A stretch of DNA of 34,862 bases, from positions 1-34,862 of the IMG/VR virus record IMGVR_UViG_3300032323_003609, one strand, 5' to 3'. Each line of letters opens with the position of its first letter. The first letter of the stretch is position 1. This stretch comes from a virus. The position numbers and the translations under genes are program-made. Positions 9,300 through 34,862 of this stretch are shown piece after piece. The notes beneath the pieces are model-generated. The model had not been told where the DNA came from and ran no database searches. It saw nothing but the letters and a program-made list of their open reading frames with translations.

Positions 9300-9671
9300 A
9301 TGAAACCATCCGAATTTAAAACTTTAATTAAGGAAGCCGTAAAAGAAGCTTTTCAAGAAGAATTAAAAGAAATTCTTTTAGAAGCTGTTAAAGCTCCTAA
9401 AGGTACACCTATTGGGAATGGAGGTTATGGTACTGTAACAGAATCACAAGGTACTTACGCTCAACCTCATATTAACAATCCTAAACAATTAACAGCATCA
9501 GAACGTAGAAATATGTTTGCTGGAATGATAGAAGAAATGCAAAATGGAGGAGTAGCAAATACTGCTTACCAAGGTACTGTTAATCCAATGCAACCTGTAG
9601 ATACTATAAATGGTGCTTTACCTGAAGGGCAAGTTGGATTAGATATGATAATGAACTTAATGAAAAAATAA
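9300..9671 (+). CDS. Small virion-region protein with N-terminal amphipathic helix
   Basis: The first 33 residues form a strongly amphipathic Lys/Glu/Leu helix (F-K-T-L-I-K-E-A-V-K-E-A-F-Q-E-E-L), followed by a Gly/Asn/Pro-rich middle and a short helix at the end (L-D-M-I-M-N-L-M-K-K). The helix resembles the N-terminal helices of many accessory proteins at 23-34.8 kb and contains an I-K-E triplet at 10-12. Function unknown. The gp25-like gene follows through a TAATG overlap, suggesting a baseplate assembly or cargo role. The sequence FAGMIEEMQNGGVANTAY is a possible binding segment. Confidence 0.55.
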   Translation: MKPSEFKTLIKEAVKEAFQEELKEILLEAVKAPKGTPIGNGGYGTVTESQGTYAQPHINNPKQLTASERRNMFAGMIEEMQNGGVANTAYQGTVNPMQPVDTINGALPEGQVGLDMIMNLMKK

Positions 9672-23070: not shown

Positions 23071-23832
23071 ATGATTGGACTGGTCTCTTTATTAAAAGAA
23101 ATACAAGGTAAACCCAAAGCCATTTTTATGGCAGGTCCAGCAGGGTCAGGAAAGTCTTATATATCCTCTAAATTAGTCCCCTCAAACTTTATTACAATAA
23201 ACGTAGATGATACCTATGAGGAATTACTTAAATCCTCAGGCATTGGTATGAAATTAGCTCAAATGTCACCTGATGAATTAAAAAAAGCAGGTGAGTTAAT
23301 GGGTCAAGCTAGAAAAACTACTGATACAAAATATAAAGATACTCTTAAAGATGCTAAAAATATATTGATTGATAGCGTTGGAGGTTCCTCTAAAACATTA
23401 CTTAAGAAAAAACAAGAATTAGAAGATTTAGGTTATGAAACAATGATGATAATGACTTATGTTTCGCCTATTACCTCACTAGAGCGTAATATGAAGCGAG
23501 ACAGATCATTATTACCAAGCATCGTGATTCGTTCTTGGCGCGATGTAAATAAAAATATAGACGTATATAAACAAACTTTTGGTGATAATTTTACTTTAGT
23601 AAATTTAGATCCTGAGGATGCTAAAAAAGATTTTGACCAAGAATATATTTACCAAACCTTTATTAAACCTTTAGGACAAGTAGGTAAAGAAAAATCACCT
23701 GAGGAAATAGAAAAATCAAAAAAAGAAACCCAACAAATCTATTCAGACATAAAATCAGCTTTACAAAACCAACCTGATTTTGATACTGAAGAACAAGCAA
23801 AAACTAAAATCACAAACTTTATACAATCATGA
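23071..23832 (+). CDS. P-loop kinase, zeta-toxin/polynucleotide-kinase-like
   Basis: A Walker A motif GPAGSGKS lies at residues 22-29, with D46-D47 after the next strand, a Walker-B-like ILIDSVGG (D101) and an Arg-rich lid (NMKRDRSLLPS, about 140-150). This is the order of zeta-toxin and polynucleotide-kinase type enzymes, which phosphorylate nucleic-acid ends, nucleotides or UDP-sugars; the substrate is not evident. Residues 1-14 (MIGLVSLLKEIQGK) are an amphipathic tag with an L-K-E triplet, like those of following proteins. A charged helical tail follows about residue 205. It overlaps the next gene by 4 bases. No antitoxin gene is adjacent. Confidence 0.75.
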   Translation: MIGLVSLLKEIQGKPKAIFMAGPAGSGKSYISSKLVPSNFITINVDDTYEELLKSSGIGMKLAQMSPDELKKAGELMGQARKTTDTKYKDTLKDAKNILIDSVGGSSKTLLKKKQELEDLGYETMMIMTYVSPITSLERNMKRDRSLLPSIVIRSWRDVNKNIDVYKQTFGDNFTLVNLDPEDAKKDFDQEYIYQTFIKPLGQVGKEKSPEEIEKSKKETQQIYSDIKSALQNQPDFDTEEQAKTKITNFIQS

Positions 23833-24191
23833 AATTACTAGATTTACTTAATGAAGTAGAAAAAAATGAAGTATTACAACCTGTTAAGGAGGAAGCTCCT
23901 GAGGTTGTTAATGAAATAGGAAAATTCTTTGTAGTTAAAAAACCTAAAAAAGGTATGACTAAAGAAGATATTATGTACGAAGCTACCGTATTTGACGAAA
24001 TTGTAATGGATGAAGTCAAAGGTGTTTATAAACAAAAATCAGATGCTTCTAGAATTGCTACTGAAGCTCTTAAAGCATACGAAGCTCAATTAAAAGAAAT
24101 GGAAGACGCTATGAATGAATTCCGTTCTGCTAAAAAAGATATTGAGGAAAAGAAAAAAGCAGCAAAAGATAAAATCAAAGCTTTACAATAA
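23829..24191 (+). CDS. Coiled-coil protein with N-terminal tag helix
   Basis: The 120-residue protein starts with the tag-like MKLLDLLNEVEKNE (L-N-E at 7-9), followed by a Pro/Glu-rich segment, a basic FVVKKPKKGMTKEDIMYEA stretch and a long charged coiled coil from about 75 to the end. No family is recognised. It is coupled to the kinase gene by a 4-base overlap and to the adenylyltransferase-protease fusion by TAATG. It could be a scaffold-like or internal head protein, judged only by composition. Confidence 0.55.
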   Translation: MKLLDLLNEVEKNEVLQPVKEEAPEVVNEIGKFFVVKKPKKGMTKEDIMYEATVFDEIVMDEVKGVYKQKSDASRIATEALKAYEAQLKEMEDAMNEFRSAKKDIEEKKKAAKDKIKALQ

Positions 24192-25507
24192 TGTCTGAAG
24201 TAACAGAATCTTTAATAAAAGAACTGTTAGAGGAACCTATAACAGTAGCCATTTATGGTGGTGGTTTTAAACCTCCTACCAAAGGTCATTTTACTGTAGT
24301 TGAAAAAGCTCTACAAGAATATCCTGAAATAGATGAATTAAAAATATTTGTTGGTGGAGGAGTTAGAGATGGTATTACTCAAGATGAATCTATTAAAGTA
24401 TGGAACATTTACAAACCCTATCTTTCAGATAAAATAGATGTTGAACCATCAGTAGCTCCAGTTAAATCTGTTTTAGGATATGCTAAAGATCATCCTGATG
24501 AAAAAGTTTATTGGATTTTAGGTGCTCGTGAAGGTGATGAAGATGATTTAAAAGATATAGAAAATAGAACTAAATCTTTAGACAAATATCCAAATATTGA
24601 AGTAAAAGTTATTACTACAGCAGGTGGTGTTAGTGGAACTAAAACAAGAGCCGCTATTGCCTCTGATAATAAAGAACAGTTTTTTCACTTAATTCCTGAT
24701 GTGAAAGAGAAAGAAGAAATTTGGAGCATTTTATCCCCAATTGTAAAAGAAGGTTTAATAGATAATGTTAAATCTAAATTTAATAACTTTGTTACATCTG
24801 TAAAACAAGAGGGAAAAGAAACAAAACAAGCCCTTAGTTTATTGATTAAAGCCGCTAAAGGAGAAATTGAATTATCAGACAATGATAAAAATTATATAGG
24901 TGAACAATTAAAAGATGTTTTAAAATTAGTAGGTTTAACAGCAATTGCTACTTTACCTGGTGGATTTATTGCTGGTGCTTTATTAAAATTATTTAAAGCA
25001 GAATTTTTAATTACACCTTCATCATTTACAAACGAATCAAATAAACAACCAATAGTAGATAATAAATCAAAAGATCCATTTGGTTTAAATGCTTATGCTA
25101 ATGAATTAGTAAAAGAAACTTTTGAAGAAACTTGGAATCCCAAGGATTCATTCGTATCTTTAGCTGTATTTATGAGAGACAATGGAATGAATATAACACC
25201 ATTGCCTAAAATTAAGGTTATATCAGACGACAAAGAAAATGCGTCTCGTCTTTTGGGTAAGACTGCTTACTACAGTCCATCAGATAAGTCAATTACTCTA
25301 TATACCTTTGGAAGGCACCCAAAAGACGTATTGCGTTCTTTTGCACATGAAATGGTTCACCACGAACAAAATCTAAACGGAACTTTAGGAAATATAGGTA
25401 CTACTAATACAAATGAGGATGGTAGTTTAGATAAGATTGAAAGAGAAGCATATGAAAAAGGTAACATTATGTTACGTAACTGGGAAGATAGTATAAAAAA
25501 TGTATAA
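24191..25507 (+). CDS. Adenylyltransferase-like domain fused to HExxH zincin protease domain
   Basis: Residues 1-15 are a tag-like helix (LIKELLEE). Residues 17-185 form a nucleotidyltransferase: AIYGGGFKPPTKGHFTVVEK contains the TxGH version (T30-K-G-H33) of the HxGH motif, and GVSGTKTRAA at about 146-155 matches the ISxTxxR motif of NMNAT and cytidylyltransferase enzymes. Residues about 215-280 contain a hydrophobic ATLPGGFIAGALLKLFK...ITPSSF stretch resembling part of LETM1-type domains. Residues 295-438 hold FAHEMVHHEQN (H386-E387-x-x-H390) with Glu residues at E418 and E422, fitting a zinc metalloprotease with a distal Glu ligand. This combination is unusual. It overlaps the HAD gene by 8 bases. 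Confidence 0.82.
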   Translation: MSEVTESLIKELLEEPITVAIYGGGFKPPTKGHFTVVEKALQEYPEIDELKIFVGGGVRDGITQDESIKVWNIYKPYLSDKIDVEPSVAPVKSVLGYAKDHPDEKVYWILGAREGDEDDLKDIENRTKSLDKYPNIEVKVITTAGGVSGTKTRAAIASDNKEQFFHLIPDVKEKEEIWSILSPIVKEGLIDNVKSKFNNFVTSVKQEGKETKQALSLLIKAAKGEIELSDNDKNYIGEQLKDVLKLVGLTAIATLPGGFIAGALLKLFKAEFLITPSSFTNESNKQPIVDNKSKDPFGLNAYANELVKETFEETWNPKDSFVSLAVFMRDNGMNITPLPKIKVISDDKENASRLLGKTAYYSPSDKSITLYTFGRHPKDVLRSFAHEMVHHEQNLNGTLGNIGTTNTNEDGSLDKIEREAYEKGNIMLRNWEDSIKNV

Positions 25508-26042
25508 ACTAAAATTAACCGATCTATACAGGCAAATCAAAGAACAAGAAACAGAGCCTGAAGAACAAAAGTATCAAATCTTTTGTGACATGGATGGAGT
25601 GTTGTGTGATTTCGATGCTCGCTTTAAAAGTATAAATCCTGAAAAATTATCTCCTACTCAATATACTACAAAATATGGAACTGATAAATTTTGGGCAACT
25701 ATTGATGCTGAGGGAGTAGGATTTTGGGTTGGGATAAAATGGATGCCTGATGGTAAACAATTATGGGAATATATTTCAAAATATAACCCTACATTATTAT
25801 CAGCTCCTTCAAGACAACCATCTTCTCGTTTAGGAAAAAGATTGTGGGTTAAAAACAATATTCCTGGAGCTAAATTAGTTTTAGCATCAGCAGAAAAAAA
25901 ACAAAATTATTCTGGTACAAATAAAATACTTATCGATGACCGCCCTGATAATATTGATCAATGGAGATCAAAAGGTGGTATAGGAATATTACACGTAAAT
26001 ACAGCAGATACAATTAAACAACTACAAAATATAGGACTATAA
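25500..26042 (+). CDS. HAD-family phosphatase (nucleotidase-like)
   Basis: HAD motif I, FCDMDGVLCDFD, gives the nucleophile D30 and acid/base D32. Motif II is LLSAPSR (S101), and motif IV is ILIDDRPDNIDQW (D146, D147). The small cap and length resemble 5'(3')-deoxyribonucleotidases or polynucleotide phosphatase domains. Residues 1-19 form an amphipathic tag-like helix (YKLKLTDLYRQIKEQ) separated by a Glu/Pro-rich linker. It lies in one operon with a P-loop kinase and an adenylyltransferase, so it may work on nucleotide or nucleic-acid ends with them. That is inference. It is coupled by TAATG to the next gene. Confidence 0.82.
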   Translation: MYKLKLTDLYRQIKEQETEPEEQKYQIFCDMDGVLCDFDARFKSINPEKLSPTQYTTKYGTDKFWATIDAEGVGFWVGIKWMPDGKQLWEYISKYNPTLLSAPSRQPSSRLGKRLWVKNNIPGAKLVLASAEKKQNYSGTNKILIDDRPDNIDQWRSKGGIGILHVNTADTIKQLQNIGL

Positions 26043-26839
26043 TGGCAGCACCAATAACATACAAAAGACTAGTTTTATCAGGAGATAAAGCAAAAGAAAC
26101 AGCCGATGAGGTTAAAGCAAAAATGTCTAAAGATTGGAAAAAAGATTTTCCTGATGGTAAATTAGATATCAAATCAGGTGTTGAAGGCAAAATGGTAATT
26201 GATGTTACCACAAAAGAATCATCAGCAGCCTCTTTAGCATCTAAAATTAAAGACATTGCTACTCGTAATAAAGTAACTACTGTTACTAAAGATAAACCAA
26301 CTTTAAAGGCTGTTAAAGAAAACGATACCAAAAAACCAGAAATGTCTGATGAGGAATTAATGAAAAAAATTAAATCATCTTTAACATTTCAAGTTACTGG
26401 TGGTAAAAAAGGTAAACCTGGTTTAAAAGAGGCTTTAGATAAAAGAATAGCTACTATATTTCTTAAATACAAAGGCAAATCATTTCCAATGGATTACAAA
26501 CCAGGATCTATGTTTGCTAAATTTGTAGATGATTTAGAAAGATCAGGAGCTTTTAGCAGTGATGATGAAGTTTCTGATTTTATGTCAAGTGAAGAATTTG
26601 ATATGTACGCTAACAAATTTGGAGTAGAAATTGATTATGCTGATTATGACCCCACTCCTTTAGAATTAGCTCCTAAAGAACCAGTTAATCCACAAGATAT
26701 GATTCCTGGTAGAGCACCTCAAGATTTTATTAGCGCTGATTTACCTCATAGAGTAACTGATTTACTAGAAAAATTAAAGAAAACAGGTAAACTAAAAAAG
26801 TCCGAATTAAAAGAAATTATCAAATACACTAAAAAATAA
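26042..26839 (+). CDS. Hypothetical modular protein
   Basis: I do not recognise the 265-residue product. Residues 1-90 form an alpha/beta domain rich in Lys (RLVLSGDKAKETADEVKAKM and later VIDVTTKESSAASLASKIKD). Residues 100-190 contain helices followed by KGKSFPMDYKPGSMFAKFVD. The C-terminus (KKTGKLKKSELKEIIKYTKK) is a basic helix resembling the tag helices of neighbours but at the opposite end. It is coupled by TAATG on both sides. It could be an internal virion protein, judged only from context. Confidence 0.5.
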   Translation: MAAPITYKRLVLSGDKAKETADEVKAKMSKDWKKDFPDGKLDIKSGVEGKMVIDVTTKESSAASLASKIKDIATRNKVTTVTKDKPTLKAVKENDTKKPEMSDEELMKKIKSSLTFQVTGGKKGKPGLKEALDKRIATIFLKYKGKSFPMDYKPGSMFAKFVDDLERSGAFSSDDEVSDFMSSEEFDMYANKFGVEIDYADYDPTPLELAPKEPVNPQDMIPGRAPQDFISADLPHRVTDLLEKLKKTGKLKKSELKEIIKYTKK

Positions 26840-27408
26840 TGAAAAATAATTCGGTTTTAAAAAAAGAGTTCAAACAACGTGATGTTGAACGCCTACGTAA
26901 CCTTGTAAAAGGTAAGTATGGTGAACGCACTACGATGGGAACTGGTTATACTAAAGCAAAAGAATTTCATAATGAAGGTGATGTTTGGGAAGAAAATGGT
27001 CGTCAATGGACTATTAAAAATGGTATAAAACAAAATATTACTAAATTAGATAAAGCAAAAGAAGGTATAATTGTACCTTTATTTTGTCCTTCATGTAGTG
27101 GAGTAATGAAACCGAATAGAGATAAAATGTGGTATATTTTAAATAACCACTGTTTTAACTGTCAGGTAGATTATGAACATAAACTTCGTTTAGAAGGTAA
27201 ATTAGAACAAGTAGAAAAACAGGTTGGAAATGATTTTATTGATGGTGTGACTCAAGATTTTGAAGTTTGGTTTGAAGATATGATTAATTCTAAAGAACAA
27301 TTTGTAACTGAGGCCGGAGATATTGAAAAATGGGATGGTTCTGGTAAAGAACAATTGTTAAAACAAAAAGAGGAAGCACTTAAATATTTACAATCACTTA
27401 AAAAATAA
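26839..27408 (+). CDS. Zinc-ribbon protein
   Basis: Two Cys pairs (FCPSCSG at about 88-94 and HCFNCQVD at about 114-121) enclose a short strand segment, KMWYILNNHCFNC, and probably bind one zinc. The N-terminal 70 residues are basic and contain EFHNEGDVWEENGRQWTIKN, a pattern I recall in conserved phage proteins of unknown function. The C-terminal 60 residues are an acidic helix. Nucleic-acid or protein binding is likely. It begins in a TAATG overlap and ends in one with the membrane GAF-like gene. Confidence 0.6.
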   Translation: MKNNSVLKKEFKQRDVERLRNLVKGKYGERTTMGTGYTKAKEFHNEGDVWEENGRQWTIKNGIKQNITKLDKAKEGIIVPLFCPSCSGVMKPNRDKMWYILNNHCFNCQVDYEHKLRLEGKLEQVEKQVGNDFIDGVTQDFEVWFEDMINSKEQFVTEAGDIEKWDGSGKEQLLKQKEEALKYLQSLKK

Positions 27409-28022
27409 TGGAAACAGCAATCACAACAATAGCCGTAGCTTTTATAACAGCCGTATTAGGACCTATTTTAATAGAATGGGTAAGAGCTAAATTAGCTAAA
27501 AAAGAAAATAAATTATCTACTGTTAAAGAAGCAATTGATTTAAATGAATTAGTTGATAGTCAATTAGAACAATTGATGGACGGTTTAGAGTGTGATAGAA
27601 TTTGGATTGGACAATTTCATAATGGTGGTCATTTTTATCCAACAGGAAAATCAATCCAAAAGTTTTCTATTTTCTACGAGAAATTAACTCCAGATACAAA
27701 TACTATACAACACGTATTTCAACAAATCCCAGTTTCATTATTTCCTAAAGCATTATCTAAATTATATAAAGACGGGGAATTAGCTATTGTAAATTATAAA
27801 ACTGATGAAAATTACGATTTAAGTATGTTTTCTAAGGATTATGGTACTAAATCTTTTTATATGTTAGCAATTGATGATTTAGATGGACATTTTATTGGTG
27901 TAATGGGAATTGCATACAACGAAAAAGAACATAAATTATCTAAAGAAGAATGGATATTTATAAGACAGAAAGTGGGTGCCATTGGTTCCCTTTTAACAGA
28001 CTATTTATATAAGAAAAAATGA
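27408..28022 (+). CDS. Membrane-anchored GAF-like domain protein
   Basis: Residues about 5-25 form a single membrane span (AITTIAVAFITAVLGPILIEW) followed by a basic, helical linker. Residues about 45-200 look like a GAF domain: CDRIWIGQFHNGGHFYPTGK, then SIFYEKLTP, and the end strands HFIGVMGIAYNEKEH plus a final helix. GAF domains bind small molecules and sense nucleotides or redox state. No output domain (kinase, cyclase or nuclease) is attached. The protein may sense conditions at the inner membrane or sequester a signal molecule. That role is speculation. It overlaps the next gene by 4 bases. Confidence 0.65.
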   Translation: METAITTIAVAFITAVLGPILIEWVRAKLAKKENKLSTVKEAIDLNELVDSQLEQLMDGLECDRIWIGQFHNGGHFYPTGKSIQKFSIFYEKLTPDTNTIQHVFQQIPVSLFPKALSKLYKDGELAIVNYKTDENYDLSMFSKDYGTKSFYMLAIDDLDGHFIGVMGIAYNEKEHKLSKEEWIFIRQKVGAIGSLLTDYLYKKK

Positions 28023-29590
28023 ACGATATTCAAAAAATAAAAGAATTTTTCTCAAAATCTTTAAACGAAGAATCAACTACATTTAAAGTAGGAGACAAAG
28101 TAACCTATTTAGGACACCCTGCTGAAATTACAGCGGTTAATAAAGAAATGACTGGTGATATTACATACAGTGTAGCTTATAATAAAGGATACGGTAGAAC
28201 TAAAGCTTCAAATATTCATCCTAAAAGTGGTGCTATTAAACCTTTAGAAGAAGTAGATATTAATGATCCTGTCTTAATGAAGGCAAGAGCAGCAGCTTTT
28301 CAAAGAACCCAACCTAAACCAGAACCTGTAAAAACAATTAATCCTAATTATAAGGCTGTTAAGAATGCTGATAAAATTAAAGCTCTTAAAATGCGTCGTG
28401 CTCAATTGATGCGCGATATGGAACAAGAAGCTGAACCAGAAGGTGGTCCGATTGCTGATAGATACGGACGTGAATTAAATAAAATTGATAAAGCAATTGC
28501 TATGTTAAGTGAAGCTAAAAAAGAAACAGGTGTTGACATGGCTAAAAAACGATTAGATGCTTTAGGTGTTAAATATGAAATGTCTGCTACTGATAAAGTT
28601 AGACCATTCAAAGTAATTTACAAACCAGTTAATAAATCAGATAAATTTTACGATGAATTTGAAGACATTGTTGATTTATTTAACTTAAAAGGTTTTGTAA
28701 AAACATCAATGGATGAAGCCAAATTTATGTCAGGAATGTTTTCAGCTAAAGACTTTATTAATGCTAAATTAAAAAACTATCCTAAAGCTCAAGCTAAAGT
28801 TAATCAATTAATTGGTATGATTGGTGAATCTAAATTCACACAGGAAATGGCTGAATGGATTTGGGATTTCTTTAACAATGCATCTTTTGAAAGCCCAGTA
28901 TACGAAGCTTCTAAAGATGAAGAAACTAAATTTCATAAAAAATTAGATAAATTAGTTCATAGCACTTTCGGTAAAAGAAAAGATGAATTAGAAGAAGCAG
29001 TTAACTTAAAAGCATCTAAATTATCATCAGCTGAATATCAAAAAGCTAAAAAATTAAAAGATTTTAAAGCAAGTGATTGGAAATGGAATGCTGATGAGGA
29101 TTTATATACTAAAATAAATGAAGAAGAATTAACTGAAGCTTATGTTCCTTCAAATATTAAAGAATTTGCTAAAAGAAAAGGTGTATCTTCTTTAGTAAAT
29201 AAAGTAGCAGGTTGGGCTGAAAAAGTAGGTGCAGGTATTAGAGGTGGAACAGCAATTGGAATGAATTACTCTACCCTTATCTTAGACATGACTTACCAAG
29301 GTTCAGAAATTCGTATCAATACAGACAACGATACTGTTACATTATATGATGAACCCGTAAATTCATTCAACCAATTCCAACGTGTTTATCTTGAAAATAA
29401 AGAAGAAGATAATGGTTTAGAGGAAAGAATTCATGAAGCATTAAATAAAATTAATGAAGAATTATGTCCTGCTGGTAAAGCATATATTAAAAGAAGAAAA
29501 GCAGCCGGTGAAAAATCATCTGCTTACCTTTCAGGTCGTGCTGTAAAAGTATGTAAAGGCCAAATGTCAGGTAAATCAAAGAAAAAATAA
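28019..29590 (+). CDS. Large modular accessory protein with N-terminal tag
   Basis: The 523-residue protein is built of short modules. Residues 1-18 are a tag-like helix (IKEFFSKSLNEE, with L-N-E at 15-17). A small SH3/KOW-like beta domain follows at about 22-65 (FKVGDKVTYLGHPAEITAV). Basic helices lie at 115-165, an alpha/beta piece at about 170-230, and a module at about 380-465 with GGTAIGMNYSTLILDMTYQG. The C-terminal basic piece, CPAGKAYIKRRKAAGEKSSA, has two Cys and is repeated in style by the next gene. I do not recognise an enzyme. The modular build and tag fit a DNA-associated or packaged protein. Confidence 0.55.
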   Translation: MNDIQKIKEFFSKSLNEESTTFKVGDKVTYLGHPAEITAVNKEMTGDITYSVAYNKGYGRTKASNIHPKSGAIKPLEEVDINDPVLMKARAAAFQRTQPKPEPVKTINPNYKAVKNADKIKALKMRRAQLMRDMEQEAEPEGGPIADRYGRELNKIDKAIAMLSEAKKETGVDMAKKRLDALGVKYEMSATDKVRPFKVIYKPVNKSDKFYDEFEDIVDLFNLKGFVKTSMDEAKFMSGMFSAKDFINAKLKNYPKAQAKVNQLIGMIGESKFTQEMAEWIWDFFNNASFESPVYEASKDEETKFHKKLDKLVHSTFGKRKDELEEAVNLKASKLSSAEYQKAKKLKDFKASDWKWNADEDLYTKINEEELTEAYVPSNIKEFAKRKGVSSLVNKVAGWAEKVGAGIRGGTAIGMNYSTLILDMTYQGSEIRINTDNDTVTLYDEPVNSFNQFQRVYLENKEEDNGLEERIHEALNKINEELCPAGKAYIKRRKAAGEKSSAYLSGRAVKVCKGQMSGKSKKK

Positions 29591-29880
29591 TGGATTTAAG
29601 TAAACTACAAGAATTAGTATCTGAATCATTACGTGACTGGTTTAAAAAAGAAGACTGGGTGCGTATTGATACTCAAGGTAATATTACTGGTCCTTGTGGT
29701 ACAATGAAAAAAGGTGGAGCAACAACTCGTTGTTTACCTCGTAAAAAAGCTCAATCATTATCTAAGGCAGAAAGAGCTAAAACCTCTAAGAAAAAAGCTG
29801 CTGCTTCTCGTAAAGGAAAGCAATTTGTAAAGAACACAGAAAAAGCAGAATACAAAAAAGGTACATATCATAAAAAATAA
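29590..29880 (+). CDS. Small very basic protein with N-terminal tag
   Basis: The 96-residue protein starts with the tag-like MDLSKLQELVSESLRDW, followed by a short beta part with GPCGTMKKGGATTRCLP (two Cys). A strongly basic tail (KAQSLSKAERAKTSKKKAA and further Lys/Arg runs) makes up half the protein. I recall similar GPCG...CLP...A-x-S-L-S-K-A-E-R-A-x-T pieces in large DNA viruses and phages, with no known function. The composition suggests DNA binding. It follows the modular protein by TAATG, and the promoter-like element at 29881 comes right after it. Confidence 0.6.
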   Translation: MDLSKLQELVSESLRDWFKKEDWVRIDTQGNITGPCGTMKKGGATTRCLPRKKAQSLSKAERAKTSKKKAAASRKGKQFVKNTEKAEYKKGTYHKK

Positions 29881-29898
29881 CATATTTATTAACATATA
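29881..29898 (+). promoter_or_regulatory. Phage promoter-like element, copy 6
   Basis: CATATTTATTAACATATA lies in the 20-base gap before the start at 29901. Its TATTTATT core ends 10 bases before the ATG. Confidence 0.4.
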
Positions 29899-29900
29899 TT

Positions 29901-30992
29901 ATGGCAAAATTTAACTTAAAAGAACATATAGCAAAGAATAAAGCTACTTTCTTTGGTTCATTAACTGAAGGTCAATTTTCTTGGATGACCCAAGATACAG
30001 GCCAACAAATTGGTTCCCAAGAAGGAAATACAATTCCTGTATACATGTTTGATAACACAGGTAAATACTGGTTTGAAAAAGAATATGAAGGATATGGTGT
30101 ATTTGGTGGTAAAGATTATTACGAATTACTAGACCAAATGAATGGTGGTATAGGTGATAGAAGTGAAGGTGTTAGAAAAGCATTTGATCCAACATTAGAA
30201 GGTAAATTATTATTTCCTGCATTAGTTGTTGGTGCTAGTAATTTTAATTATAAAACTCATGATTTTACTCAAGAAGCAGAAACTGATCCTAATCAATCTT
30301 GGTTATCTCCTGAAGAAGAGGAAGATTATGATATGGATAGAGAAGAAGATTATGATTATTCTGATTATGATTATTCTGATGGAGAAGAATTAGAAGAAGG
30401 TAAAGCTGCTTATGAATACGAAAAAGGTAAAGAAGCAGGTGAAAAAATAGAAAAGAAAAAAATGAAAAAATCTGAATTAAAAGCTAAAATCAAAGAAATG
30501 ATTGTAGCCGAAATGGATGGTCCAGCTGAGGTAGCAAAAGAATATGACTTTTTAGCTGAATTAGAAAGCATGTTAGAAGCTGATGAAGAAGCTGATGCTG
30601 AAGCAACTGATGAAGTAGCTCCAGAAGAAGTAGATACTACAGTAGATGTTACTACAGATGAAGTAGATCCTAATGTTAAAGATGTACAAGATGCTTTAAC
30701 ACAAGCTCAAGCAGCCGCTCAAAAATTAGGCGATCCTAAATTAACAGATCAAATTGGTAATACAATTACTTTCTTTACTCGTTCACACGTAGTTGAAAAA
30801 CCAACAGGTGCTGTAACTGAAGCAGATGAAATTGAAGCAGGCAATATGCAATATGTGTTAGATTGGTGGGAAGAATTACCATTTGAAACTAAAAAAGAAA
30901 TATTTCATCAATATCAAGAGGCTGGAGATGTCGCTAACAGATATAAAATGAACGAATCAATGTTCCCAATATTAAAGAAAATTTTAAAATAA
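29901..30992 (+). CDS. Modular acidic accessory protein
   Basis: Residues 1-24 form a short helical segment (FNLKEHIAKNKATFFGSLTE) with L-K-E and L-T-E triplets. Residues 44-115 form a compact domain, PVYMFDNTGKYWFEKEYEGY, then GVFGGKDYYELLDQMNGG and G-K-L-L-F-P-A-L-V. I recall this as a recurring module of large phages and viruses, function unknown. A highly acidic Asp/Glu/Tyr linker spans about 128-168. A second tag-like helix (KSELKAKIKEMIVAEM) lies at about 190-205. Another acidic Ala/Thr/Val-rich linker and a helical end follow. The acid-basic patchwork suggests an internal or DNA-mimic-like protein. No enzyme motif is visible. Confidence 0.55.
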   Translation: MAKFNLKEHIAKNKATFFGSLTEGQFSWMTQDTGQQIGSQEGNTIPVYMFDNTGKYWFEKEYEGYGVFGGKDYYELLDQMNGGIGDRSEGVRKAFDPTLEGKLLFPALVVGASNFNYKTHDFTQEAETDPNQSWLSPEEEEDYDMDREEDYDYSDYDYSDGEELEEGKAAYEYEKGKEAGEKIEKKKMKKSELKAKIKEMIVAEMDGPAEVAKEYDFLAELESMLEADEEADAEATDEVAPEEVDTTVDVTTDEVDPNVKDVQDALTQAQAAAQKLGDPKLTDQIGNTITFFTRSHVVEKPTGAVTEADEIEAGNMQYVLDWWEELPFETKKEIFHQYQEAGDVANRYKMNESMFPILKKILK

Positions 30993-30998
30993 AAGTAT

Positions 30999-31169
30999 AT
31001 GAACACACAAGAAATTTTTGAAAAAATCGAATTGTTATTTGAAGAATTTAAGACCGAACATGCTAAAACTACAAAAGCAGCTCATGGTCGTGCTAGAAAA
31101 GCTTTAGGTGAAATCAAGAAATTGGTTACCGAATACAGAAAAGCATCAATCGACGAAGATAAAAAATAA
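30999..31169 (+). CDS. Hc1-like histone H1-like small protein
   Basis: This 56-residue gene lies in the gap between 30992 and 31175. The product reads MNTQEIFEKIELLFEEFKTE, then HAKTTKAAHGRARKALGEIK and KLVTEYRKASIDEDKK. It matches the pattern of Bacteroidota Hc1/histone-H1-like proteins: an acidic helix, then K-x-x-K-A-A-x-G-R-A-R-K-A, then L-x-x-L-x-x-E-Y/F-R-K-x-S. Such proteins bind and compact DNA. A phage copy could condense its genome in the head or alter the host nucleoid. It is next to two other basic or AT-hook-like proteins. The start is the only ATG that keeps the whole family pattern. Confidence 0.82.
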   Translation: MNTQEIFEKIELLFEEFKTEHAKTTKAAHGRARKALGEIKKLVTEYRKASIDEDKK

Positions 31170-31174
31170 TAACT

Positions 31175-31435
31175 ATGACTTATTTGAAACGCTTTTGGAA
31201 TTGGTTATTAGGTAAAACCTCAGTCGACGAAAAAGTAGTAGAAACCTATCATAAGGTAGAAGACAAAGTTGAGGAAGTTGTTGACAACGTAAAAGAAACT
31301 GTTGAAACAGTAACTGAAGAAGTTAAAGATGTTAAAGAAGCAGTTAAAGAAGTTGTTAAACAATCTAAAGACGTTGTTGAAGCTACTAAAGGTAAAAAAA
31401 GACAAGGACGCCCTAAAAAAACAACTAAAAAATAA
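31175..31435 (+). CDS. Amphipathic helix-repeat protein with AT-hook-like tail
   Basis: The 86-residue protein has an aromatic basic start (MTYLKRFWNWLLGK) that may attach to membranes or DNA. Val/Glu/Lys heptad-like repeats follow at about 22-62 (VEEVVDNVKETVETV and similar), as in LEA-like or apolipoprotein-like helices. The tail GKKRQGRPKKTTKK contains Q-G-R-P, close to the AT-hook core R-G-R-P. It is encoded right after the Hc1-like gene and coupled by TAATG to the next gene. A DNA-organising role together with the neighbour is plausible but not shown. Confidence 0.6.
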   Translation: MTYLKRFWNWLLGKTSVDEKVVETYHKVEDKVEEVVDNVKETVETVTEEVKDVKEAVKEVVKQSKDVVEATKGKKRQGRPKKTTKK

Positions 31436-32949
31436 TGCTTAACGAACGCGAACTTACCAAAGCCGAATTAGAAAAACGTGAAGACGTTTTAAAGGATTTA
31501 AAAAAACGTAAAAAAGAATTAGTAAAACGTTATGGTAAGGACGCTGAGTCTGTTATGTATGGTCGTGCAACCAATATTGCCAAAAAACAAGCAGAATCAA
31601 TGAACAAAGAAAAAATCAAAGAACTAGTTAAAAAAACTTTAATGCAAGAAGATAATAATGAATCATCATCATTATTTAATGACCTTGAACAAAAATTAAA
31701 ATCACATGATTGGTTTTACATGATGTCAGATGACAATAGAGCTTATACAAATGGTTCAGCTCAACAATCTGAGATTCGTAAAATAATTAAAGATTTAGAA
31801 AGTATGGGTAAAGGTCAAGAAGCTAAAGATTTATATAACAAATATGCTCCTTATACTCCAGGTGGTTCTGATTTAAGAATGAAAGAAGAGAAAAAATTCC
31901 CTGATTTAACAGGTGATGGTAAGGTAACTAAAGCTGATATCTTAAAAGGTAGAGGAGTTGAATTAAAAGAAGACTGGGGTGGTTCAGATCAATATGCAAT
32001 GAATCAATCAATTCATAAAGATTTAGGTGAACCTACAGAATTTCCTTCACCATTTGATTCTAAATTTAGTTCAGCGGTTGAATCAGCTGTAGATTTCTTT
32101 TGGGATGATTGGGAAGAATATAGAACTGATAGAGAAGGTCTTGTAAATAAAGCAATGATGTCTTACTATAGAGCTTTCTTTCCTGAAAAACTTGAAGGGT
32201 TTATGAAAATGTTTGGTGAAAACCTAAATGAAGATCTAGATTTAGGTCATCAAGATAATGAACCACATATGCTAAAAGGTGATTTATATCGTATTGGAAA
32301 ATATGCTATGGAATTATACCAAATGGTAGATGAGTTTGAAGGTAAAGGTGAGGTTGATTTTCCACATTGGTGGCAAGCTAAAATTATTAAGGCAAAAGAT
32401 TGTTTAGTAGGTGCTAAACATTATTTAGATTTTGAAGTTAAAGAACCATCTATTGATGCTATGGTAGGTGTTGCTTCTGATGAAAAAATACTTGATGATG
32501 AAGCTCCAATGATGGAAGCTGAAGGAACCCTAAACCAAGTTAGAAATGAATTATTAGGTTTATTTCAACCATTTGGTGATTTTCAAATTTTAGATATGAC
32601 TATGAAAGGTCAAAACATAGGAACAGAATTTCGTTTATATTCTAAATCAAAAGGTGCTAATTGGAAAGGTTTAGAAAATTTTATGAGAAATAATCCTGAT
32701 TTTACTATCAAACATATTTCAAAACAAACCTTTGATAATCCAAAATCAATAGATTTTTCTTATAAAAAATCACCAATGATGGAAGGTGAAGTAACTAAAG
32801 TAGACAAATTAGCAGCTAAAATTGCCAAAGCACTTAAAAATCCAGAAAATAAATCACCTGAAGATCAAAATAATATCAAACAAGCTAGAAAAGCTATGAA
32901 CAAAGGTGATATTAAAACTGCTGAAAAAATCGTTAAACCTTACAATTAA
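31435..32949 (+). CDS. Large modular accessory protein with EF-hand-like loop
   Basis: In the 504-residue protein, residues 1-55 form a basic helical module with KRYGKDAESVMYGRATNIAKK, recurrent in related phage proteins. A tag-like helix (MNKEKIKELVKKTLMQED) sits at about 56-73. DLTGDGKVTKAD at 157-168 forms a calcium-binding EF-hand/dockerin-like loop, with D157, T159, D161 and D168 suitably placed. A module at about 275-345 includes GHQDNEPHMLKGDLYRIGKY and HWWQAKIIKAKDCLVGAKHY, which I recall in other large phages. The C-terminus is basic helices. It is coupled by TAATG on both sides. No enzyme motif is seen. It may be a structural or internal protein. Confidence 0.55.
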   Translation: MLNERELTKAELEKREDVLKDLKKRKKELVKRYGKDAESVMYGRATNIAKKQAESMNKEKIKELVKKTLMQEDNNESSSLFNDLEQKLKSHDWFYMMSDDNRAYTNGSAQQSEIRKIIKDLESMGKGQEAKDLYNKYAPYTPGGSDLRMKEEKKFPDLTGDGKVTKADILKGRGVELKEDWGGSDQYAMNQSIHKDLGEPTEFPSPFDSKFSSAVESAVDFFWDDWEEYRTDREGLVNKAMMSYYRAFFPEKLEGFMKMFGENLNEDLDLGHQDNEPHMLKGDLYRIGKYAMELYQMVDEFEGKGEVDFPHWWQAKIIKAKDCLVGAKHYLDFEVKEPSIDAMVGVASDEKILDDEAPMMEAEGTLNQVRNELLGLFQPFGDFQILDMTMKGQNIGTEFRLYSKSKGANWKGLENFMRNNPDFTIKHISKQTFDNPKSIDFSYKKSPMMEGEVTKVDKLAAKIAKALKNPENKSPEDQNNIKQARKAMNKGDIKTAEKIVKPYN

Positions 32950-33458
32950 TGACTGCTTCTGAATTAAGAGAAAAAATCAAAATGCTTGCAAAACAAGTGT
33001 ATACTAAAGATACACCTGTTAATGTAGATTCTCCCTCAGAAATTAGTCTAGATATAGAGGAAACATTTCCTGTATTAGGAAAATTTCCTGACCTAAAAAA
33101 AGTTATTGTAGATTTATTTACAATACAGTACGAATTATTTATTGAAGATATTCAGTGGGTTGCCCCTCGTCCTACTACTTTTAGAATATTATTAGCCAAT
33201 GGTGAGTCGTTTTTCTTACATTACACTCCAAGAAGCTGGGTTGCTACTATTGAGGGAAAGAAATATTATCTTGCCAACCTCGGTGAGGAAGAGCAAGCAG
33301 TTCAAACTTTAGCAAGAATTTTATCCTATGGCCAAAAAACAGAAACCACAGCAGAAGGCGGCGACGAAGCAGCAGCCGAAACCGGCGCCGAAGAAACAGG
33401 GCAAGAAGAAGTAGCACCTGAAGAACCAGCAGCTGAAACACCAGCAGAAGAAGCTTAA
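32949..33458 (+). CDS. Conserved phage protein with Ala/Glu-rich tail
   Basis: Residues 1-20 are a tag-like helix (ASELREKIKMLAKQVYT, with L-R-E at 6-8). Residues 40-130 form a compact alpha/beta domain, FEDIQWVAPRPTTFRILLANG in style, continuing F-F-L-H-Y-T-P-R-S-W-V-A and KKYYLANLGEEEQAVQTLAR. I recall this from T4-like marine phages without a function. The last 35 residues are only Ala, Glu, Gly, Thr, Pro and a few others. That tail is encoded by unusually GC-rich DNA (about 33350-33455) compared with the AT-rich surroundings. Confidence 0.6.
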   Translation: MTASELREKIKMLAKQVYTKDTPVNVDSPSEISLDIEETFPVLGKFPDLKKVIVDLFTIQYELFIEDIQWVAPRPTTFRILLANGESFFLHYTPRSWVATIEGKKYYLANLGEEEQAVQTLARILSYGQKTETTAEGGDEAAAETGAEETGQEEVAPEEPAAETPAEEA

Positions 33459-33460
33459 TT

Positions 33461-34579
33461 ATGGACGCGTTAGATTTATTTTTAAAAAAATATAGTTATA
33501 AATTTCCAAAAGGATATCCTGACTTAGGTAACAAAAGTGATATGATATTACTTGAATCATTATTAAATGAAATTCTTGATGAAAAAGTTACCTTAATTAG
33601 AGAAGGTGATGCTGAAGAAGCTATTGATCTTCTTAAAAAAGAACTTAACTTAAAAGATGAAGATTTTGTAAAACAATCTTCTGTAAGATATAAACTTTTA
33701 GTTCCTAGAGCTGAAAGATATAGTTATGTAGAAAAAATAACTAAAATTCCTGGATTTACTTATGATGCTAATTTATCTGGATCTTCTATTGGAGGTTTAA
33801 AATATAAAGGAGCTACATTTTTACTAAAACCATCAGGTGCTCAAGGTAGAGCATCAGCTGGTACTGAAAATGAAGATATTGTTGTTAATGAAATAAATAA
33901 GTATATTGAAGAAGGAGCTAAAAATGTAATATTTGATGCCCCTAATAAAGACTTAACTATTAACAACGTTAAAAAAGCTAAAACTGTAGGATACGATGTT
34001 GCTGGAGGTAAAAAAGCAGATATCATTGTTGAAGCAGATAAAGATTATCCTATTTCAATTAAAAAAGATAATGCTGGTTTCTGGGAAAGCTCAGACACAA
34101 GATATAAAGATGTAGTTAATACATTATCTAAAAAAATAAAAGATGGTAAGTTTGCTCCTGAATTAGTATTTGTACCTTTTAAAGATAAATTAGGCAATAC
34201 TAAAGAAGGAATCAATATAATGTATAACGAAAAAACCAAACAAAAAATATCTGGTGTTTTAGTTACAGATCTTCCATCTAAAGAAGAAGAATCAATTATA
34301 TTTGGTTCAGATAAAGTAGTTGTAGTGTATAGAAGTTTTTCACCTAATGACTTTAGATTAGAAGGTGATACTTTATATGTTGAAATTTCTAAAATTATAG
34401 AAGATATGTCTGATGTAGAAGAGTTTAATTTAGAACCAGTATTAAACATTAGACACGATTCAACAAGAACAGCCACTGGTGGTTTAAGAGCCACAGTACA
34501 ACCTAAAAACAAGGTTTACAAAGACGAAGAAGCCACAGGTAATAAAATTGAATTATCTTATAATCAAATAATGTCCTAA
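33461..34579 (+). CDS. Putative PD-(D/E)XK-like nuclease with N-terminal tag module
   Basis: Residues 5-48 contain KKYSYKFPKGYPDLGN and then a helix, LLESLLNEILDE, with [L/I]-x-E triplets. I recall this module attached to various proteins of large phages. Residues about 110-205 show a nuclease-like order: TENEDIVVNEINKYI (E136/E138), KKADIIV (D187) and YPISIKKDNAGFWES (K201/K202). This fits E...D...x-x-K of PD-(D/E)XK enzymes, but the usual spacing of D and E-x-K is loose, so activity is uncertain. The C-terminal 150 residues are beta-rich and not recognised. It begins two bases after the previous stop and ends before a promoter-like element. Confidence 0.55.
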   Translation: MDALDLFLKKYSYKFPKGYPDLGNKSDMILLESLLNEILDEKVTLIREGDAEEAIDLLKKELNLKDEDFVKQSSVRYKLLVPRAERYSYVEKITKIPGFTYDANLSGSSIGGLKYKGATFLLKPSGAQGRASAGTENEDIVVNEINKYIEEGAKNVIFDAPNKDLTINNVKKAKTVGYDVAGGKKADIIVEADKDYPISIKKDNAGFWESSDTRYKDVVNTLSKKIKDGKFAPELVFVPFKDKLGNTKEGINIMYNEKTKQKISGVLVTDLPSKEEESIIFGSDKVVVVYRSFSPNDFRLEGDTLYVEISKIIEDMSDVEEFNLEPVLNIRHDSTRTATGGLRATVQPKNKVYKDEEATGNKIELSYNQIMS

Positions 34580-34590
34580 TATTTATAATT
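34577..34590 (+). promoter_or_regulatory. Phage promoter-like element, copy 7
   Basis: TAATATTTATAATT fills the 11-base gap and the previous stop codon, ending directly at the ATG at 34591. The core TATTTATA ends 3 bases from the start codon. Confidence 0.35.
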
Positions 34591-34862
34591 ATGGATTTAA
34601 ATAAATTAATAAAAGAGGTGTTATATGGTGATTGCTGCAAGGCAATTAAGCCAACTAAAGCGCCTATATTAAATGAAAATCTAGCTCCGCGTGAGATATT
34701 GTCTGAGGGATTACAATATCATATAGACAATAAAAAACCGCTTACTGAGCATGTTTATCGTGCTGGTTCAACTAATTATTTCCACTTATGGGCTGAAGCA
34801 AGAACTTTATATTCTCGTGGTATTCTAGACTTCTCAGGTGATGACTTAGCAATATTAACTGA
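34591..34862 (+). CDS. Hypothetical protein with N-terminal tag, runs off the window end
   Basis: The frame from 34591 stays open to the last base, giving about 90 residues. It begins MDLNKLIKEVLYGDCCKAIK, with the tag-like LIKEVL (I-K-E at 7-9). It continues P-T-K-A-P-I-L-N-E-N-L-A, a helix G-L-Q-Y-H-I-D-N-K-K-P-L-T-E-H-V, and F-H-L-W-A-E-A-R-T-L-Y-S-R-G. I recall similar proteins in related phages, function unknown. The tag directly followed by a Cys pair is unusual. The end of the protein is missing. Confidence 0.6.
   Translation, partial: MDLNKLIKEVLYGDCCKAIKPTKAPILNENLAPREILSEGLQYHIDNKKPLTEHVYRAGSTNYFHLWAEARTLYSRGILDFSGDDLAILT

Follow-up and report, generated by a model that had tools for sequence, protein, structure and literature searches.

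Why do many otherwise unrelated proteins of one phage begin with the same kind of short amphipathic helix? The question is raised by a 34,862-nt stretch of viral DNA, IMG/VR record IMGVR_UViG_3300032323_003609 (hereafter the window, meaning the whole stretch), which ends ahead of the head genes. An earlier note had proposed that 13 of its proteins carry an N-terminal tag with an [L/I]-x-E triplet, which would sort them into the phage head as the capsid targeting sequences (CTS) of phage T4 do. Sequence comparison identifies the window as part of the genome of a T4-like myophage, a relative of Flavobacterium phage immuto. Comparison with its relatives makes it highly likely that unrelated, partly enzymatic proteins are loaded into the prohead core by short interchangeable terminal tags, which a gp21-family (S77) protease would then remove.

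Three tag classes on unrelated proteins

The tags fall into three classes: class A (...hxxLLxE), class B (MDNFDLKKYLxE(G/N)KLLKE) and class C (MKKQILSEEFxRMQKLAGIITE(S/G)). Each ends in a hydrophobic residue followed by [L/I]-x-E, and each is found on unrelated proteins, hereafter bodies. Class A is the helix first reported in the window, and its cleanest form in the relatives is MIKLxDILNE. Class B, defined by at least 8 of 14 matching positions, occurred at the N-terminus of 42 proteins with 25 distinct bodies and internally once, against 0.15 expected by shuffling. We also scanned 2.9 million IMG/VR viral contigs for DNA encoding NFDLKKYL. Among the matches listed, the exact peptide occurred in at least 126 open reading frames (ORFs); it was N-terminal in 119 of the 126, on at least 79 distinct bodies, and lay at residue 3 in 112, and a glutamate followed KKYLx at the predicted P1 place in 119 of 128 cases. 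Class C was present as at least 13 N-terminal copies on 13 bodies among the contig-scan matches listed, with more under looser matching. Cultured phages searched with tag B or C peptides gave only immuto records, although such short queries limit sensitivity.

The tags are exchanged between bodies. The bodies of G015_4491 and G001_44251, from two relatives, are 82% identical over 172 residues and bear tag C and tag B, respectively, and their distant immuto homolog bears tag A. Three further body families (CPxPTQ, EGRGEGA and YMYSPVGFGC) carry tag A or tag B, depending on the phage. In the relative G004, four tandem genes with unrelated bodies share 87-96% identity over the 54 nt of the tag and then fall to 23-38%; most of the 12 nt upstream of the tag is also shared. 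This abrupt drop indicates that the tag moved as a DNA cassette. The sharing of a short N-terminal stretch by otherwise unrelated proteins within one phage, as the earlier note described, was confirmed. The tagged repertoire itself varies from phage to phage, as would be expected for accessory cargo.

Tags, scaffold and cleavage site

All eight of the scaffold genes compared, which lie between the protease and capsid genes, encode proteins that terminate in the class C core, their last residues being ARWQKLAGIK or a close variant. Among the contig-scan matches listed, the core stands at the very C-terminus in 60 of 81 ORFs, mostly scaffold homologs. Among the copies compared, [LIV]xE follows all 37 non-terminal copies of the motif and one of the 25 terminal copies, where the sequence ends. 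The triplet is kept after non-terminal copies despite indels that alter the spacing (GITES, GIQLNEN, GIKKLNEN). The scaffold and the capsid protein also start with sequences resembling class A (NRDLLKEA and SQVQQLLES). At the position of the T4 capsid cleavage site (LTE/A, the slash marking the cut), the capsid protein has an invariant glutamate, with valine at P3 (10/10). [L/I]xE is the motif of the S77 protease (PMC9026906).

In many scaffold tails, I-x-E or V-I-x-E also immediately precedes the RMQKLAGI tail, and protease cleavage there could set the tail itself free.

Head genes of the relatives

Of the cultured phages in the collection, immuto (NC_055915) is the nearest relative, with its baseplate wedge 49% and its adenylyltransferase 31% identical to those of the window. 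Tags of all three classes occur in it, together with the protease and a syntenic island; the record carries no annotation of its tags as such. The gene order primase, exonuclease, variable island, terminase, portal, prohead protease, scaffold and capsid protein is conserved in immuto and seven long IMG/VR relatives, and an eighth (G009) matches it from the terminase through to the capsid gene. The variable island between exonuclease and terminase corresponds to the window proteins at 23071-34862. G015, which shares 87% DNA identity with the last 1.9 kb of the window, continues into the terminase, portal, S77 protease, scaffold and capsid genes, with the protease at 15.0 kb, about 11.5 kb beyond the window's end.

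The relatives thus hold a T4-like myophage head module comprising a gp23-type capsid protein (immuto Gp23 against PF07068, 6e-84), a gp20-type portal, an S77 protease and a scaffold between the protease and capsid genes. Whether a gp21-like protease is encoded had been posed as a check, and one is found in the head operon of all eight long relatives, immuto and G015 (ten relatives). It is also encoded in six of six contigs of at least 159 kb, among the matches listed, that were chosen solely for holding a tag. The immuto protease matches PF03420 (S77) at 9e-35. The proteases of the relatives conserve His85 and Ser140, the active-site residues of T4 gp21, and their N-terminus, QVLIE/T, parallels QLLIE/T in T4.

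Statistics of the N-terminal pattern

Within residues 2-25, [LI]xE occurred in 12 of the 16 window proteins from 23071 onward, whereas 6.4 were expected when each N-terminus was shuffled (p = 0.001) and 3.9 from random internal stretches. The other 25 window proteins were at chance level, with nine having the triplet near the start and 6.3 expected. We compared a stricter pattern, h..hh.E, between the exonuclease-to-capsid island and the remainder of each genome, using nine genomes. It was enriched in the island in eight of them, with odds ratios from 2.9 to infinite (immuto, p = 4e-6); the result for G004 was not significant.

With a profile built from nine window tags, N-terminal segments passed the threshold more often than internal segments matched for composition and moment, by a factor of 8 to 67 that is inflated by homologs of the training proteins. 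The helices are thus more alike than comparable internal ones, partly by descent. Two outcomes by which the earlier note would have rejected the tags, genomes lacking the protease and helices no more alike than random ones, were therefore not obtained. The ranking of T4 proteins is independent of this effect: among 256 T4 ORFs, with T4 absent from training, gp24 ranked 1, gp22 ranked 3 and Alt ranked 5. All three are substrates of gp21 (PMC9026906). The ratio of nonsynonymous to synonymous polymorphism (pN/pS) was 0.39 in tags and 0.41 in bodies; the tags are constrained, but no more than the bodies behind them.

Proposed mechanism and alternatives

On the sequence evidence, the tags are best read as functionally CTS-like, that is, as scaffold-mimicking, protease-removed capsid-targeting sequences with new, interchangeable sequences and a much wider range of cargo. 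The premises provided by sequence comparison are tag exchange, tag-scaffold identity, conservation of the site and presence of the protease. The tag would dock its cargo onto the scaffold core or the inner shell by imitating a scaffold contact. During maturation, the S77 protease would cleave after the glutamate of [L/I/V]-x-E, and the freed proteins would remain inside the head and pass into the host together with the DNA. For the further proposal of a modular loading code, in which cargo tags are copied from the phage's own scaffold (C from its C-terminal tail, A from its N-terminus), carry the protease site on the cargo version and are swapped as DNA cassettes of about 54 nt, we see an even chance.

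The proposal of an exchangeable signal of the T4 CTS/gp21 type is strongly supported by the tag swaps, the number of bodies, the near-identical tag DNA, the triplet, the adjoining protease and the identity with the scaffold tail, although four of the 13 proteins for which it was made do not hold up (see below).

Several points weigh against this interpretation. The docking partner, packaging, cleavage, retention and delivery by injection are argued from T4 by analogy, and we found no virion proteomics for immuto in the open-licence literature. The window itself terminates before the head genes, so that its proteins gave no match to PF03420, and the protease is known from the relatives only. 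Valine, not leucine or isoleucine, at P3 of the capsid site means that the specificity is not identical to that of T4. The hhalign comparison of class C tags on cargo with scaffold tails involves some circularity, as the core motif had served to select both sets. Class A tags are short with a weak pattern, and the area under the curve for separating the island from the rest was only 0.58-0.75. The tags of the T4 internal proteins (IPs; MKTYQEFIAE) share the h..hh.E pattern and yet score poorly with the window profile (ranks 118-175 of 256), so the likeness is one of pattern, not sequence, and we claim no direct homology. Tagged genes also occur here and there beyond the head region.

The N-terminal helices might be chance products of the K/E/L-rich and A-rich starts of AT-rich Bacteroidota phages, with L-x-E arising from composition. 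The low information content of class A and the triplet near the start of nine of 25 unrelated window proteins would fit this; shuffled N-termini, however, yield half the observed count, and the enrichment is specific to the head-adjacent island. With classes B and C near-identical on dozens of bodies and the glutamate retained through indels, chance is largely refuted and scarcely credible. It is very improbable that the common N-terminus goes back to duplication of one ancestor whose bodies diverged past recognition while the tag stayed in place. The tag DNA common to the four tandem G004 genes is what duplication would leave, but identity there falls to chance at a single point, bodies that are 82% identical bear different tags, and tags vary within four body families.

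Amphipathic helices are able to bind membranes, and the tags could dock to another phage structure, such as a membrane, a replication compartment or the tail, with L-x-E being incidental. We regard this as improbable, since class C coincides with the tail of the scaffold itself, the N-termini of scaffold and capsid protein look like class A, the tagged island adjoins the head operon, the triplet is the motif of the S77 protease (PMC9026906) and the window profile ranks T4 gp24, gp22 and Alt among its best matches. A more serious alternative, still unlikely in our view, is that the tagged proteins are core or scaffold components that assist assembly, are cleaved and leave, with no cargo delivered. 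Several of them are indeed small or coiled-coil proteins. Several bodies, on the other hand, have enzyme motifs (P-loop, deoxyribonucleotidase, nucleotidyltransferase), and the repertoire differs between phages in the manner of accessory cargo, which speaks against this alternative.

Comparison with known systems

In T4, IPI-III and Alt carry N-terminal CTSs cleaved by gp21 (Mullaney and Black; PMC9026906, PMC12373910). The first ten residues suffice, and an aspartate at position 10 permits targeting and blocks processing (PMC9026906). That T4-type internal proteins can be unrelated behind one leader is established (PMC12373910). The present tags resemble these in being N-terminal propeptides of 10-20 residues that end in hydrophobic-[L/I]-x-E on unrelated bodies, with an S77 protease and a variable accessory gene set. 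They differ in their sequences, which form three classes instead of the MKTYQEFIAE type, in the interchange of these classes on one body, in the identity of class C with the scaffold C-terminus, in the far larger number of bodies, in genes that abut the head operon, and in being known from sequence alone.

The ejection proteins of SPN3US and phiKZ are likewise head proteins whose N-terminal propeptides are removed by a gp21-related protease (PMC5694885, PMC10052503), and SPN3US gp53 and gp54 begin with the same 15 residues, a two-protein case (PMC5694885). Their propeptides, however, are mostly long (>100 residues) with another motif, and dozens of bodies behind a short tag are not seen there. 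In P22 scaffold-fusion loading, cargo is brought in by the coat-binding end of the scaffold (PMC9962691), so in both systems a scaffold end carries cargo. The P22 system is engineered and works without a phage protease step, whereas the one described here is natural and mostly N-terminal, and its cargo copies carry an additional cleavage triplet.

The novelty lies in the tag sequences and their division into several interchangeable classes, in the scale, in the identity of one class with the scaffold tail and in the distribution across uncultured relatives of a Flavobacterium phage; we found no description of these tags in the open-licence literature searched. If the proposed mechanism is true, the injected proteins of a large environmental group of T4-like phages would become predictable from sequence alone. 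It would also provide several non-T4 loading tags, one of them common to the scaffold tail, with which proteins could be packaged into phage heads. The question of the partner of capsid-targeting sequences becomes testable, as competition between the class C tag and the scaffold C-terminus for one partner, and immuto is a cultured phage with a cultured host.

Tagged and rejected proteins of the window

All ORFs named in the earlier note exist and begin where it placed them, and the bodies behind the tags are unrelated, as it claimed. Most of its 13 proteins keep their tag, given the enrichment of [LI]xE and the conservation of the glutamate in orthologs (57-100% within the ortholog families of eight window proteins). 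The claim that each has [L/I]-x-E is literally true, but the triplet is not conserved in the proteins at 9300, 31435, 32949 and 33461. The features are listed in Table 1.

Table 1. Tags and rejected helices in the window (all on the + strand; slash, predicted cleavage point)
Coordinates	Strand	Feature	Protein	Basis
9300..9671	+	Fixed amphipathic N-terminus, rejected as tag	Tail-cluster protein	Ortholog comparison
23071..23100	+	Class A tag, MIGLVSLLKE/	23071-23832	Preceding L and final E kept in 56/56 orthologs
23829..23855	+	Class A tag, MKLLDLLNE/	23829-24191 (coiled-coil protein)	LxE 87% conserved
24191..24235	+	Class A tag, MSEVTESLIKELLEE	24191-25507	Found in most relatives, shifting register
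25500..25544	+	Class A tag, MYKLKLTDLYRQIKE	25500-26042	IKE 72% conserved
28019..28069	+	Class A tag, MNDIQKIKEFFSKSLNE	28019-29590	LNE 100% (5 aligned orthologs)
29590..29625	+	Class A tag, MDLSKLQELVSE	29590-29880	E 88-100% conserved
29901..29969	+	Class B tag, MAKFNLKEHIAKNKATFFGSLTE	29901-30992	LTE 100% in 12 orthologs; class B family member
30999..31043	+	Class A-like helix with LFE	30999-31169 (56 residues)	E and L 89-96% conserved
32949..33002	+	N-terminal helix, rejected as cleavable tag	32949-33458	LxE glutamate 42% conserved
34591..34617	+	Class A tag, MDLNKLIKE	34591-34862 (gene cut at window end)	Ortholog comparison

The likely cargo, judged from sequence, includes a P-loop kinase or zeta-toxin-like ATPase (23071-23832; PF06414, 2e-9), a protein with a cytidylyl/NMN-adenylyltransferase-like domain and a HEMVHHE metallopeptidase-like end (24191-25507; family matches weak), a 5'-3' deoxyribonucleotidase (25500-26042; phrog_2643, 5.8e-23) and a small basic, histone-like protein (29590-29880; phrog_23735, 1.1e-11, a family of unassigned function). 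In the coiled-coil protein at 23829, conservation was lowest in the stretch after the tag (0.54; tag 0.80, body 0.74). The final glutamate of the tag at 24191 is 35-50% conserved, with register shifts. The protein at 29901-30992 also contains an A-like copy (KKSELKAKIKEMIVAE), and the tag at 30999 is ambiguous because most of that protein looks helical. The tag at 34591 is shared with G002, G005, G006 and G015, and the same body has other N-termini in G001, G003, G014 and immuto; its final glutamate is accordingly 57% conserved, the tag being absent or replaced in other phages.

Four proteins were rejected as tagged. The protein at 32949 keeps its helix but mostly not the glutamate; that at 9300 belongs to the tail gene cluster, where every relative has the same helix of about 30 residues in the same position. 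In the proteins at 31435 and 33461, the helix lies in the interior of the sequence or forms part of the fold.

The AlphaFold model of 33461-34579, which lies in the same island without a convincing tag, was confident, with a predicted local distance difference test score of 85.8. Its residues ~47-132 are weakly nucleotidyltransferase-like, and residues 135-349, with invariant D187, K201 and K202, weakly resemble HinP1I/HhaI. Foldseek with this model gave no significant match, the best being restriction-type nucleases (E 0.3), and comparison with HinP1I (VIA) gave Z 6.0 over 163 residues, a range that may mean a mere common arrangement. Sequence searches of the PDB with the proteins at 33461, 24191 and 25500 gave no significant match. 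The HExxH end of 24191-25507 shows a weak likeness to M91 metallopeptidases (E 0.06; immuto counterpart, 0.006).

Tag B also occurs midway in long ORFs of two contigs (L323 and L286), in L323 with a class A tag directly after it, and in immuto gp088 (L003:7131-9854) two domains are separated by an A-like LAE helix; these three are possible cleavable polyproteins. The 268.7-kb relative G005 (record of L018) has a second S77-type protease at 233476-233922, beyond the copy in the head operon. Finally, the immuto region L001:18607-37015 contains QueC/D/E/F, FolE and DpdA as annotated, which probably serve 7-deazaguanine DNA modification, as well as GroEL/GroES.
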